DNA from: Opitutaceae bacterium
GTDB lineage: Bacteria; Verrucomicrobiota; Verrucomicrobiia; Opitutales; Opitutaceae
Reading direction: 5' to 3'
NCBI GenBank assembly: GCA_027485815.1
Contig: JAIXQE010000215.1
Coordinates: 1 to 36,680, forward strand
DNA: 36,680 bases
Shown: in pieces, positions 8,142 through 12,910 of the stretch
Layout: the number at the start of each line of letters is the position of its first letter
Position numbering within the stretch: position 1 is the stretch's first letter
Program-made: the position numbers and the translations under genes
The notes under the pieces: model-generated
The model's database searches: none
What the model saw: only the letters and a program-made list of their open reading frames with translations
What the model was told of the DNA's origin: nothing

Positions 8142-8273
8142 GGCCGCGGGGCGGGGGTCCCTCCGCGCCTTGGTCCGACTGTCCGAGCGAGGGGCCCTTC
8201 TGCCGGGAGCGGGGCACGGCTTGACTGCGTGACGACTCCCGTTCGCTTGCTGTCCCTCCGCCCTGCACCCGCC

Positions 8274-11200
8274 ATGAACCCCCGCCTGTCCCCGTCCTGC
8301 GCCCTCCTCCTCGCCCTCGCCGCGCCCCTCGCCGGCCAGTCGGTGCCCGCCCCCGCGCCCACGCCGGCCCCGGAGGTGATCGAGCTCTCCCCGTTCCAGG
8401 TCTCCGCCGCCGCCGACAAGGGCTACCTCGCCGCCAACACGCTCTCCGGCACCCGCCTCAACTCGAAACTCGAGGACCTCGGCGCCTCCATCACCGTCGT
8501 CACCAAGCAGCAGCTGCTCGACACCGCCGCCGTCGACCTGAACGACGTCTTCCTCTACGAGGCCAACACCGAGGGTACGGGGAACTTCACCGCCTTCACC
8601 GTCGACCGCAACGGCGGCGTCAACGACAGCGTCCAGGGCAGCCCCCAGACCGCCAACCGCATCCGCGGCATCGACTCTGCCAACGTCGCCCTCGGCAACT
8701 TCGCCGCCAACAGCAGCATCCCGCTCGACACCTACAACGTCGACGCGGTCGAGATCAGCCGCGGCCCCAACTCCAACATCTTCGGCCTCGGGAACACCTC
8801 CGGCACGGTCAACATCCTCCGCTCGCAGGCCAACCTGACCCGCGCCTTCAACTCCTTCACCCTCCGCGGTGACAGCTACGGCGGCTACCGCACGAGCTTC
8901 GACCTCAACCGCCCGCTGCTCCGCCAGCGGCTGGCCCTGCGCCTCTCCGGGGTCTACGAGTCCAAGGCGTTCCAGCGGAAGCCCTCCGACGAGATCAGCC
9001 GCCGCGGCCAGGCGGCCGTGACCTACCGCCCCTTCACGAGCACCACGGTCCGCGCCAGCTACGAGTCGTACCACAACTACGCCCGCCGCCCCAACGCGGT
9101 CACGCCCCGCGACGCCGTGACCTACTGGAAGTCCGCCGGCAGTCCCACTTGGGACCCGACCACGCAGCTCGTCACCCTCGCCAACGGCACCCGCAGCGGC
9201 CCGTTCACGCAGGCGCAGGACGGCAATCTCCCGCTCGGCCTCTTCGCGCAAGGCACGGGCTTCTACAACCGCCCGAGCATCTACGTCGACCAGGGCGCGG
9301 TGCAGTTCTGGAGCGTCAACCGCACGGGCACCGTCCCGACGACCGGAGTGTTCGCGGGCATCCCCACGCCCGACAATCCCAACACGAACCTCCGTTACCT
9401 GGAGAGCGGCACCGACCTCCAGCGCCTCCGCGGCTCGCTGTTCCCCCTCTACGTCACGCCCTCCATCACCGACCGCTCACTGTACGATTGGACGTCCGTC
9501 AACTTCGTCGCTCCCAACTACAACAAGGACAAGGCGGACATCTACACGGTCGAGGTGGAGCAGATCGCGCTGCAGACCCGGACGCACCTGCTGGCCTTCC
9601 GCGCCGGCTGGATGCGGGAGGATTACGACAACTACAGCCGCAATTTCATCGGGGGCACCAATGCGGTGCTCTACGTGGACGTGAACGAGAAGCTCCTCGA
9701 CGGCCGCGCCAACCCCTATTTCCGGCGTCCCTATATCGCCGCCTCCGAGCCCACGCTGTTCAACCGTCCCTCGGTGAATGACATCCAGAGCGGGGACATC
9801 GCCTACCAGTGGACGCCCTCCGGCCTGCCCCGCCTCCTTTCGTGGGTCGGCACCCAGAAGTTCGCCGGCCACGCCGAGGTGCGCCGTCTCGACACCGCCA
9901 CCTACCGCTACCGCGATGCCGTCCTTTCCGATCACCGCTGGATCAACCTGCAGAACCGCACCGGCGTCACCGCCGCCCGCGCCTACTACAAGTACTACGT
10001 GGGCGACGCCCAGGGCTCGAACATCGACTACGCCCCGGCTGACGTCTACGGCCTCGCCGGGACCTACAACCTGACCTGGTTCAACGCCGCCACCAACCAG
10101 TGGGTCAACGAGCCCGCCACCATCGGCGAGGCCGGCGTCACGCCCTCCAATCGCACCCGCCGCGAGATCCGCACCCAATCGGCCACCACCCAGAACTTCT
10201 TCTTCGGCGACCGGCTCGTGACCACCTTCGGCCTCCGCGAGGACAAGAACCGCAGCCGCGATTCCAACGGTGCGGGGATCGACGCCACCACCGGCCTCGT
10301 CGACTACGCCCCGCTGCGGATCTGGGGCCCGTGGCTGGAGAAGGCCGGCCGCACCAAGACCGCGGGCGCGGTGGTCCGCCCCTTCCGTGACGTCGCGTTC
10401 GTCGAGCGCCCGGCCAAGGATGGGGCCGGCGTCACGCGTTTCCTCGCCCAGGCGGCGCGCTCCGTTTCGGCCCATTACAACCAGTCCGACAGCTTCCAAC
10501 CGGCGATCACCCAGTACAACCTGCTGGGCGAGGCGCTGCCGAACCCGACCGGCCGCGGCAAGGACTACGGCGTGTCGGTGAGCCTGCTCGACAACCGGCT
10601 CTTCCTGCGGATCAACCGGTATGAGACCTTCCAGGAGAACGCGCGCAACGGCGATGCCGGCATCGTGGCGACGCGCGCGATCCGGATGGACACCGGGCGC
10701 AGTGGCAACGGGAACGACTCGTTCAACCTGGAGACCTGGGCGACCCTGCTGGCCAATGCCCGTTTCACGGCGCAGGGGATCGTGCCCACGGCCGCGCAGA
10801 CGTCGTCCGCGGTGGCCAAGCTGATGGGCCTGCCCGAGGGCTTCCTCGACACGCTGGTGGGCAAGAGCATCACCGAGACCTCCGACATTGAGGCGCGCGG
10901 CCTCGAACTGGAGTTGAACTACAACCCGAGCCGCAACTGGCGCTTCAAGCTCACGGGCGCCCAGCAGAAGTCGATCGACACCAACATCTCGCCCCGCGTG
11001 CAGGAGTATCTGGACCGCCGCCTGCCCATCTGGACGGCCCTCAAGGACGATGCCGGCGTGGACTGGTGGACCTCGCGGATCGGCAGCGGCGGCGTGCCGC
11101 GGGACTTCTACATCGGCAACGTCTCGGCGCCGCTGAAGCTGGCGATCGCGAACCAGGGCAAGCCGCGCTCGCAGGTGCGCGAGTGGCGGTTCAACTCGCT

Positions 11201-11561
11201 CGTGAACTACACCTTCACCGAGGGCCGGCTGAAGGACCTCAGCCTGGGCGGGGCGCTGCGCTGGGAGGACCAGGCCGCGATCGGCTTCCGCGGGGCGGCC
11301 CCGGACGCGGATGGCGTGGTGCGGACCCTGGATCGCAACCGGCCGGTCTTCGACCAAGCCCGGACCTACGTGGATTTGAGTGCGGGTTATGCGCTGCGGC
11401 TCTTCGCGGGCAAGGTGCGGACGCGGCTGCAGCTCAACGTGCGCAACGCCTTCGAGGATGGTCGGCTGCAGCCGGTGGCGGTGAATCCGGACGGGGCGCC
11501 GTTCGCCTACCGGATCATCGACCCGCGCCAGTTCATCCTGACCGCGACCTTCGACCTCTGA
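8274..11561 (+). CDS. TonB-dependent outer-membrane receptor, Opitutaceae type
   Basis: The ATG at 8274 gives a typical signal peptide (M-N-P-R-L-S then a Leu/Ala core to A-G-Q-S); a GTG 45 bp upstream is less likely. The 1095-residue protein lacks the regulatory sandwich of its neighbour. After a short Pro/Ala linker it has E-V-I-E-L-S-P-F-Q-V (bases 8373-8402), then the plug (L-S-G-T-R-L-N ... I-T-V-V-T-K-Q-Q ... N-R-I-R-G-I-D ... V-D-A-V-E-I-S-R-G-P-N ... G-L-G-N-T-S-G-T-V-N-I) and a large barrel. The C-terminus ends in Leu rather than Phe. This architecture resembles the siderophore-receptor-like proteins that are abundant in Opitutaceae. The ligand is unknown: a glycan is suggested by the neighbours, a metal chelate is possible. 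A strong terminator follows. Confidence 0.92.
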   Translation: MNPRLSPSCALLLALAAPLAGQSVPAPAPTPAPEVIELSPFQVSAAADKGYLAANTLSGTRLNSKLEDLGASITVVTKQQLLDTAAVDLNDVFLYEANTEGTGNFTAFTVDRNGGVNDSVQGSPQTANRIRGIDSANVALGNFAANSSIPLDTYNVDAVEISRGPNSNIFGLGNTSGTVNILRSQANLTRAFNSFTLRGDSYGGYRTSFDLNRPLLRQRLALRLSGVYESKAFQRKPSDEISRRGQAAVTYRPFTSTTVRASYESYHNYARRPNAVTPRDAVTYWKSAGSPTWDPTTQLVTLANGTRSGPFTQAQDGNLPLGLFAQGTGFYNRPSIYVDQGAVQFWSVNRTGTVPTTGVFAGIPTPDNPNTNLRYLESGTDLQRLRGSLFPLYVTPSITDRSLYDWTSVNFVAPNYNKDKADIYTVEVEQIALQTRTHLLAFRAGWMREDYDNYSRNFIGGTNAVLYVDVNEKLLDGRANPYFRRPYIAASEPTLFNRPSVNDIQSGDIAYQWTPSGLPRLLSWVGTQKFAGHAEVRRLDTATYRYRDAVLSDHRWINLQNRTGVTAARAYYKYYVGDAQGSNIDYAPADVYGLAGTYNLTWFNAATNQWVNEPATIGEAGVTPSNRTRREIRTQSATTQNFFFGDRLVTTFGLREDKNRSRDSNGAGIDATTGLVDYAPLRIWGPWLEKAGRTKTAGAVVRPFRDVAFVERPAKDGAGVTRFLAQAARSVSAHYNQSDSFQPAITQYNLLGEALPNPTGRGKDYGVSVSLLDNRLFLRINRYETFQENARNGDAGIVATRAIRMDTGRSGNGNDSFNLETWATLLANARFTAQGIVPTAAQTSSAVAKLMGLPEGFLDTLVGKSITETSDIEARGLELELNYNPSRNWRFKLTGAQQKSIDTNISPRVQEYLDRRLPIWTALKDDAGVDWWTSRIGSGGVPRDFYIGNVSAPLKLAIANQGKPRSQVREWRFNSLVNYTFTEGRLKDLSLGGALRWEDQAAIGFRGAAPDADGVVRTLDRNRPVFDQARTYVDLSAGYALRLFAGKVRTRLQLNVRNAFEDGRLQPVAVNPDGAPFAYRIIDPRQFILTATFDL

Positions 11562-11592
11562 GTAGGCCGCGGCTGGCTGGAACCGGAACCGC

Positions 11593-11625
11593 AAGGCCGC
11601 GGCCGAGTTGGCCGCGGCTTTTGTT
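11593..11625 (+). terminator. Rho-independent terminator after the second TonB receptor
   Basis: A 9-bp perfect stem, GCCGCGGCC (11596-11604) with GGCCGCGGC (11610-11618), has a 5-base loop and is followed directly by TTTTGTTT. Flanking A residues extend the pairing. It lies 35 bp after the receptor stop. Confidence 0.85.
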
Positions 11626-11650
11626 TCGATGTCGCCTGATCGCGGCTCGG

Positions 11651-11779
11651 TGTAGCCGGGGCATCTTGCCCCGGACGGCGGGAACGTCGTTCCTGCGGCG
11701 GAGCGGCTGAGAATCGGGCGGGAAGCAGAGGCGGAAGGGGTTTCGTGCCGCACGACCGGGGCACGATGCCCCGGCTACA
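11651..11779. repeat. REP/BIME-like palindromic element
   Basis: The two ends are inverted copies of a 24-base unit (11651-11674 and 11756-11779) that match at 23 of 24 positions. Each unit is itself a hairpin: TGTAG followed by an 8-bp stem CCGGGGCA/TGCCCCGG with a 3-base loop. The interior holds a further small hairpin, GGAAC-GTC-GTTCC (11681-11693). It lies between a terminator and the end of a convergent gene, the usual place for REP-type elements. No open reading frame or target-site duplication was seen. Dispersed copies in the genome would be expected but cannot be checked here. Confidence 0.7.
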
Positions 11780-11796
11780 TCAAACCCCGGCTCCCC

Positions 11797-12798
11797 TCAG
11801 CGCGCCGCCGGCCGCAGGTGCGCGCGTACAAAGTCATTCGCGGTCGCGTGGCGCACGTCCGGGGCACCCGGATACACCAACTCGCACGGGACGCCGTCGG
11901 CGTCGCAACGCTCCTTCAGCTTCACCCCGAAGTTGGCCGAATGCGTCGGATCCTTCTCCGGCTGCCCTAGGTTCGGCGGGGCGCTGTAATAGAGGCCGAC
12001 CGGCGGGTCGCCGCGGCTCACCAGCTCGTACGGCGAATACTCCCGGATCCACGGCAGGAGCCGTTCCCGTGATTCATGGAAGACCTGGAAGGAGGACAGT
12101 TTCCGTCGCGGATCGGCGGCGATCCCGAAGGCGTGCGCCCCGTAGGTGATGTTCGGCGTCCACGCGCGCATCTGGTGCGGGTCGAGACTCGTCTGCGCCC
12201 CGTCGACGGCGACGCAGGTGACGCGGGTGGATTGCCGCGCCACCGGATCGGGGGAGCGCGGGTCGGCCAAGTCATCGCGGAACGCCAGCCACAGGCTGGT
12301 GCAGGCGCCGGCGGAACCGCCCGCGAGGGCCACGCGCGTCGGGTCGAGGTTCCATTCCCGGGCCTTCGTCCGGCAGAACTGCAGGGCCCGCGCGCAGTCC
12401 AGCATCGGCCCCTGCACCGGAGGCACGAGGCCGTCGGCGGTCGCATCGCGGATGGTGCGGTATTCGACGGAGGCCACGGAGATGCCGGCCTGCAGGGCCG
12501 GGAGGAGCATGTTGCGCACCACGGAACGGTCGCCGCCGTTCCAGCCGCCGCCGTGGATGTAGACGAGCAGGGGCGTCGGCCGGTCCGACTGGGCGCGCCA
12601 GAAATAGATCACCTGCATCCGGTGTGGCCCGTAGGCCACGTTCTCATCGGGCGGGACCGGCAGGGAATACTTGAGTTTCTCCGGATCGCTGGCCGCGGGC
12701 GCCTTGGCCGCCGCGGCAGGGGAGGGCGCCGCGGGAGCAGCCGCGCAGAGCGCGCCGGCCGCGAGCACGAACGTCAGGGTCAGGTGGAATCGGGGCAT
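11797..12798 (-). CDS. Secreted alpha/beta-hydrolase esterase (HGGGW family)
   Basis: The ATG at 12798 is preferred over an in-frame start 60 bp upstream because a signal peptide follows directly (M-P-R-F-H-L-T then an Ala/Leu core to A-A-P-A). The 333-residue protein has the oxyanion motif H-G-G-G-W, the nucleophile elbow G-G-S-A-G with Ser162, and a C-terminal His317 in D-V-R-H-A. This is the hormone-sensitive-lipase / BD-FAE esterase fold, whose members include acetylxylan and feruloyl esterases. It probably deacylates a carbohydrate outside the cytoplasm, matching the upstream sulfatase and acetylesterase. It converges on the receptor operon across the REP-like element. Exact substrate is not readable. 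Confidence 0.87.
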   Translation of the reverse strand: MPRFHLTLTFVLAAGALCAAAPAAPSPAAAAKAPAASDPEKLKYSLPVPPDENVAYGPHRMQVIYFWRAQSDRPTPLLVYIHGGGWNGGDRSVVRNMLLPALQAGISVASVEYRTIRDATADGLVPPVQGPMLDCARALQFCRTKAREWNLDPTRVALAGGSAGACTSLWLAFRDDLADPRSPDPVARQSTRVTCVAVDGAQTSLDPHQMRAWTPNITYGAHAFGIAADPRRKLSSFQVFHESRERLLPWIREYSPYELVSRGDPPVGLYYSAPPNLGQPEKDPTHSANFGVKLKERCDADGVPCELVYPGAPDVRHATANDFVRAHLRPAAR

Positions 12799-12863
12799 CG
12801 CGTAGGGTCGTGGCCAGTCAGCTGCGGCCGGAGGTCGAGTCAACGTCCTCCTCCCCACCGGCC

Positions 12864-12898
12864 CTCTACTCGCTACCCGCTACCCTCTACCCGCTACT
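12864..12898. repeat. Five 7-bp tandem repeats
   Basis: Five consecutive units of consensus CKCTACY (CTCTACT, CGCTACC, CGCTACC, CTCTACC, CGCTACT) lie upstream of the esterase gene and just beyond the stop of the UPF0173 gene. They are not in a gene. Their function is unknown. Confidence 0.75.
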
Positions 12899-12910
12899 TC
12901 CCCCCGTCCC

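Follow-up and report, generated by a model that had tools for sequence, protein, structure and literature searches.

A hairpin doublet between two convergent genes

The DNA analyzed here (hereafter, the window) is a stretch of 36,680 nt from a 4.08-Mb Opitutaceae genome assembly, which we denote G000. Within it, a TonB-receptor-like gene (positions 8229-11561, plus strand; Pfam Plug, 1.9e-6) and a convergent alpha/beta-hydrolase gene (11797-12858, minus strand) enclose a palindromic element at 11651-11779, which lies 89 nt from the end of the first gene and 17 nt from the second. The element consists of a left REP at 11651-11674 on the plus strand (TGTAGCCGGGGCATCTTGCCCCGG), a spacer of 81 nt (11675-11755), and an inverted right REP at 11756-11779 on the minus strand (TGTAGCCGGGGCATCGTGCCCCGG). 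A preliminary description, made from the letters of the window, had given these bounds and an inverted match of 23 of 24 bases between the end units, and the sequence agrees with both. The left REP carries the GTAG tag at 11652-11655, a stem formed by CCGGGGCA and TGCCCCGG, and the loop TCT; the right REP has the same stem and the loop TCG. Each unit folds on its own, as had been claimed, into a stem of 8 bp closed by a loop of 3 bases, with TGTAG left unpaired in front of it (-15.4 kcal/mol as an RNA fold). The whole element, taken as 11649-11782, can also form one hairpin as a DNA fold (z -6.9; none of 200 shuffles was equally stable); it is a long imperfect inverted repeat with 46-nt arms that are 78% complementary. 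The sole difference between the two units is the third loop base, as the preliminary description had noted in support of selection on stem pairing; the position is correct, but one mismatch is a weak argument, which is carried instead by the covariation over 90 copies given below.

Outside of the repeat, 3' of the TonB-receptor-like gene, there is a GC-rich inverted repeat of 12 bp at 11593-11621 on the plus strand (fold z -5.08), followed by just TTTTG. Because of this short T-run, and because a terminator scan of 11500-11900, which needs 5 T in 8 bases, called nothing, we regard this stem-loop as terminator-like only. Thus, the earlier placement of the element between a terminator and a convergent gene holds for the gene, and the terminator has to be downgraded.

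The REP population of the genome and the genus

We counted copies of the REP in G000 using two patterns, with the reversed pattern as control. The 13-mer core TGTAGCCGGGGCA, which had been proposed as a search key, occurs 40 times exactly (control, 0). A family pattern that leaves the inner stem and the loop free, TGTAGCCGGGG N7 CCCCGG, has 90 exact copies (control, 0), 151 copies at up to two mismatches (control, 4), and 295 at up to three (control, 83); tag and stem are exact in the 90 copies, with the tetranucleotide GTAG at the foot of the short hairpin. The sequence is therefore neither single in the genome nor missing from relatives, and a single-copy chance palindrome is ruled out by the 40 core occurrences and the 90 pattern copies, against controls of 0.

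Of 223 sampled genomes of the order, 13 contain the exact 13-mer; apart from G000, each of these has it only once. Across 27 genomes of the genus, the copies at up to two mismatches number 202 in G229, 162 in G239, 151 in G000, 141 in G242, 81 in G243, 80 in G235, 52 in G233, 38 in G226, 33 in G246, 31 in G224, and 28 in G225, with fewer than 20 in the rest and controls of 1 to 11; the family is common in the genus, but uneven. Few of these copies are exact in G239 (10 of 162) and G243 (11 of 81), because the REP loop of these genomes has 4 bases and does not fit the 7-N pattern. An exact scan of a public genome collection, from which the records of the window itself are possibly absent, with a stricter 24-mer yielded 23 stretches; four Opitutae/Opitutaceae/Verrucomicrobia MAGs account for 20 of these, namely G242 (CAIOTK01), G225 (SYDD01), G233 (VHCY01), and G234 (VHCI01).

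Three contigs filed under other taxa are also worth recording. L119 (JAIYCN010000344.1, 1-3814), filed as a Rubrivivax MAG, has 99.8% identity over about 3 kb to G000:C33 and contains four family REPs; it looks mis-binned, from a near-identical organism. L132 (VGYR01000366.1, 273-1266), filed as a Planctomycetota MAG, has nine family REPs and 85% identity over 1 kb to G000:C67, and is probably mis-binned Opitutaceae DNA. L123 (OY288147.1, 2404-2432), of a Rhodobacteraceae MAG, is a single near-perfect palindrome with the REP core and tag-like sequence on both sides, and has no match among the compared Opitutaceae loci.

An important property of the search pattern is that it fixed neither of the inner pairs n1-n7 and n2-n6 of the seven inner bases. 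The n1-n7 pair is Watson-Crick in all 90 exact copies (45 A-T, 44 C-G, and 1 T-A), and n2-n6 in 85 of 90 (71 A-T, 9 G-C, and 5 T-A). It should be noted that the copies are related by descent and cannot be counted as 90 separate events; several distinct paired states are nevertheless present, and further inner pairs are found in other species, e.g., TC...GA in G226, G229, and G235.

The REPs of G000 are also paired with each other, another property that the preliminary description had proposed for examination. Neighboring exact REPs less than 250 nt apart are arranged head-to-head in 21 cases, tail-to-tail in 8, and head-to-tail in 2, so that 42 of the 90 exact REPs stand in inverse pairs with GTAG outside, the arrangement of a REPIN or BIME. 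In 12 of the 21 head-to-head pairs, an AA-type REP is combined with a CA-type REP; three pairs are CA/CA, the window doublet among them. Spacers of 24 G000 doublets, a set that includes two L103 doublets with a common right arm, have a mean pairwise score of 0.050, compared to -0.081 for shuffled spacers (sd 0.004, 20 shuffles). Since the spacers are more alike than shuffled ones, the doublet including its spacer is likely to be the unit.

Long imperfectly inverted arms such as those of the window element, together with doublet sizes of mostly 108-159 nt, could also be expected from a MITE of a classical DDE insertion sequence, with the REP ends as terminal inverted repeats. In 23 doublets, however, no direct repeat of at least 5 nt was found at offsets 0, 1, 2, 7, or 8, and the only 5-nt match was at offset 10 (0.1 expected). 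We rejected the DDE MITE on this lack of target duplication; moreover, each end is itself a GTAG-tagged hairpin and the linked transposases (see below) are of the Y1 type, which makes such an origin extremely improbable.

The conserved sequence extends beyond the tag. Seven to one bases 5' of TGTAG, many REPs have a box GGNTYGR, which is fitted by GGCTCGG at 11644-11650 (plus strand) next to the left REP, and by GGTTTGA at 11780-11786 (minus strand; the reverse complement of TCAAACC) next to the right one. In 76 unique REPs of G000, the frequencies are 91% for G at -7, 93% for G at -6, 64% for T at -4, and 96% for G at -2; the same positions reach 94, 96, 81, and 98% in G242 (48 REPs), and 79, 86, 83, and 97% in four other genomes pooled (29 REPs). 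This conservation is lacking in the REPs next to the RAYTs of G229 and G235 (10 REPs; -7 G 30%, -6 C 40%, -2 G 80%). It may be a part of the element or a mark of preferred targets.

The genomic context was studied in 38 G000 loci that were picked by the CA-type core, with crude gene calls. They contain 32 REP clusters, of which 16 lie between convergent genes, 7 between tandem genes, and 3 between divergent genes, while 3 are possibly intragenic and 3 are unclassified at locus edges; i.e., 26 of 32 clusters are intergenic. This agrees with the general placement of REPs, mainly between convergent or same-direction genes, in the available excerpt of PMC3733652. That 16 of the 26 clusters flanked by two called genes are convergent, and that each hairpin is strong as an RNA fold, could be taken to mean that the doublet is an RNA or termination element kept by the host, i.e., a bidirectional terminator or an mRNA 3'-end stabilizer between convergent genes, which is now immobile. 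However, the hairpins have no T-run, a separate terminator-like stem is already present at 11593-11621, and an Rfam search of the whole window returned 0 families; the inverse units, the similar spacers, and the RAYTs beside matching REPs are left unexplained as well. We consider such a function very unlikely to be what maintains the doublet. Convergent-gene placement can reflect tolerated insertion as well as use, and the window element probably has no dedicated role, being harmless between two convergent gene ends, where it may, as a side effect, influence the 3' ends of the two transcripts.

A DNA search with the window locus gave matches in 25 of 27 genomes; no pair of filled and empty sites was found for the window copy among the six best TonB-receptor orthologues (L176-L181), which are followed by other downstream sequence. 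At another site, G224 and G242 have an orthologous doublet in common. G000 and G233 differ in an intergenic stretch with REP sequence in both, and G233 has one extra doublet compared to G234, in tandem arrangement and with the junction at the CTACA end; insertion, deletion, and recombination fit these differences alike. Further observations concern the surroundings. At 11562-12908 of the window, the TonB-receptor gene is followed in G000 by the hydrolase gene, whereas G242 and G224 have other DNA there, with the boundary occupied by a REP doublet; possibly, REPs are markers of places where genes are exchanged. G242 and G224 also have in common a second palindromic repeat, in which CCTTCGGTTAT-like units stand in tandem around CCTAGG; it is located about 350-450 nt downstream of the TonB-receptor stop in L177 and L176. 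A stretch of G000 near 1590-1640 of L003 resembles this repeat.

RAYT genes beside matching REPs in congeners

Relatives of G000 carry short Y1 proteins that we assign to the RAYTs: the model NF047646 (REP_Tyr_transpos; cut-off 80) scores 105.6 and 104.9 bits for RAYTs in relatives, the H-V-H motif of HUH enzymes is invariant, and among solved structures the best match is to E. coli TnpA-REP (4er8, E 6.7e-12). The three best matches to NF047646 (in G239, G243, and G242) have about 150-168 aa and adjoin GTAGCCGGGG REPs. Altogether, five of five RAYTs of this group (G239, G243, G242, G229:C8, and G235:C300) lie 28-197 nt from GTAGCCGGGG REPs, which are found on both sides of the gene in G229:C8 and G235:C300, and on one side only, in the fetched flank, in G239 and G243. 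In a second group, three RAYTs (G235:C118, G229:C51, and G231:C333) lie 19-74 nt from GTAGGCGGGG REPs. Hence, among 51 fetched Y1 loci, all eight RAYTs of the two groups are within 19-197 nt of a REP that matches their group, and either REP is found in the fetched flanks of 2 of the 43 other loci (L073 at 411 nt and L170 at 997 nt). The two REP stems can be told apart by the bases with which they begin after GTAG, CC in one and GC in the other. In a tree from which L152, L146, L149, and the long L073 protein were left out, the two REP-defined groups are split from each other with support of 100/99; 7 of 11 inner branches are not resolved, and the tree supports neither the GTAGCCGGGG group as a clade nor its relation to six ungrouped RAYTs.

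A RAYT flanked by its own REPs is the arrangement of a REPtron, and the congeners are likely, judging from these sequences, to carry the cognate enzyme. Such a pattern would be expected from RAYTs that each act on a REP type of their own, which is what the available portions of PMC3116915 and PMC6006769 report for other genomes. Further short RAYT-like genes (L144, L147, L148, L151, and L153) adjoin other REP types, e.g., GTAGGGCGGCGAG, GTGGAGCCCGATG, GTAGCACGGGCAAC, and GTAGGGCCGCCGC; thus, the genus holds several RAYT-REP pairs. One of the two outlying loci, L073 of G242, encodes a 307-aa Y1 transposase between two REP doublets, with 24-nt inverted ends, GGGGTCAGCCTGTTGCATGTTGCG, that were identified by eye at 322-345 and 1408-1431. 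We rejected this protein (59.1 bits, compared to the RAYT cut-off of 80) as the cognate enzyme, since it has ends of its own, inside the REPs, and proteins of its kind show no link to REPs at the remaining fetched loci; read by eye, it appears to be a TIR-associated Y1 element lodged among REPs.

The preliminary description had suggested looking for a lone TnpA-REP (Y1) gene in the genome. None was found in the G000 assembly by Pfam, NCBIfam, single-protein, or profile search, and the link to the enzyme comes from the congeners. Pfam Y1_Tnp is missing from G000, G224, G225, and G233 and was found in the other 23 of the 27 genomes; its strong matches are mostly of about 320-390 aa, closer to TIR-associated Y1 proteins than to RAYTs. 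NF047646 is above its cut-off in 17 of 27 genomes, G000 not among them. Below the cut-off, it matches G233 (E 0.0015), G225 (0.175), and G000 (best, 3.83), none of them confirmed by RAYT profile A1, which was built from five RAYT proteins that are members of both REP-defined groups. In a single run, A1 gave matches down to E 1e-58 in G239, G243, G242, G235 (two), and G229 (two), and nothing in G000, G225, G233, and G224.

One reading of this negative result is that the G000 population is an orphan whose RAYT is lost and whose copies are now only fossils, as the same lack of a RAYT in G225, G233, and G224 would suggest. The share of exact copies among those at up to two mismatches is 10 of 52 in G233, 2 of 31 in G224, and 10 of 28 in G225, and the populations of G233 and G224 look decayed. 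The G000 population does not look decayed, since its exact share (90 of 151) is the top one among high-copy genomes, compared to 64 of 141 in G242, 91 of 202 in G229, and 40 of 80 in G235, all of which bear RAYTs. Furthermore, RAYTs flanked by REPs are easily lost from assemblies; that of G000 is a draft of 232 contigs with an estimated completeness of 97.18%, and the contig with the RAYT of G242 ends within the gene. Loss and incomplete assembly both fit, and given the undecayed copies, the draft state, and the truncated G242 gene, we favor a RAYT that was missed or lost recently; a fossil population is possible, although unlikely.

The element at 11651-11779 is confirmed as a head-to-head pair of GTAG-type REP hairpins, i.e., a BIME or REPIN. 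The name REP/BIME, under which it had first been proposed, is the right one because of the GTAG tag, the short perfect stem, the high copy number, the head-to-head pairing, and the RAYT beside the same REPs in relatives. Most probably, it is a member of a large GTAG-REP population of the genus that is mobilized by RAYTs. According to this model, each GTAG-tagged hairpin, while single-stranded, would be bound by the RAYT, a small HUH Y1 transposase, which is predicted to cut and rejoin near the hairpin; the doublet would thereby be excised or copied in trans, without target duplication, to new and mostly intergenic sites. The model draws on copy number, pairing, compensatory stem changes, the doublet arrangement, the lack of target duplication, and the group-specific RAYTs beside matching REPs in congeners. 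We infer that the RAYTs of relatives act on REPs, and that an orthologue acted on the copies of G000. A more speculative variant, which we consider rather improbable, is that the G000 REPINs stay uniform, and perhaps go on spreading, with no RAYT encoded in the same genome (e.g., through a RAYT acting in trans, or through recombination or gene conversion between copies), and that what moves in this lineage is larger than a classical REP, taking in the GGNTYGR box as a possible cut or target site.

Comparison with known REP systems

Previous work has described GTAG REPs as such, doublets with spacers, heterodimers, and REPs that are linked to a RAYT. Our literature search for Opitutaceae together with "repetitive extragenic palindromic" found no report; nevertheless, the suggestion that the element would be a verrucomicrobial example is right in that a REPIN is present in Opitutaceae, and is not a first, as Opitutus terrae (Verrucomicrobia) is stated to be highly enriched in GTAG repeats, with the families GTAG-17, -19, and -20, in the available text of Di Nocera et al. 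2013 (PMC3733652). These families have in common with the window element the phylum, the GTAG tag, the short stem and loop, and dimers; the likeness is one of description and not of consensus sequence in the sections of PMC3733652 at hand, where the head-to-head partners of GTAG-17 are 1-2 bp apart, compared to 81 nt here. The same sections mention heterodimers in other GTAG families, which the AA/CA heterodimers of G000 resemble.

For this uncultured and little-studied lineage, the present data add three things of modest use: RAYTs and REPs that can be matched to each other inside a single genus, the box outside the tag, and REPs that do not look decayed in an assembly where no RAYT was detected. 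The two RAYT groups and two stems, with the compensatory inner pairs, are a ready enzyme-substrate set for testing RAYT recognition of REPs. As a caution, the RAYT can be missing from a draft genome even when the REPINs in it look healthy.

The REPINs of Pseudomonas fluorescens SBW25, as outlined in the accessible part of Bertels and Rainey 2011 (PMC3116915), likewise have the inverted REP doublet as the unit, clusters next to a RAYT, and several REP types, each with a RAYT; they belong to another phylum and, in contrast, no RAYT was found in the G000 assembly. The 307-aa Y1 protein of L073 is of the same kind as the TIRYT/TIRtron of Di Nocera 2013 and subclass 2.1 TnpA-Y1 of PMC6006769, insofar as the excerpts at hand describe them; its own inverted ends, inside the REPs, begin with GGGGTCAG and, by eye, fit GGGGWSAS. 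The BIMEs and the REPtron of E. coli, with TnpA-REP (4er8), also combine GTAG with a palindrome, and the Y with Z heterodimers of E. coli are similar to the two-subtype heterodimers of G000. The REP of REPtron Sm of Stenotrophomonas, according to the available portion of PMC8266576, shares the layout of the window REPs, with 16 perfectly palindromic nt around a center of 3 nt. Compared to the REPs of E. coli and Stenotrophomonas, the stem sequence is different, and a GGNTYGR box outside of GTAG is conserved in this species group.
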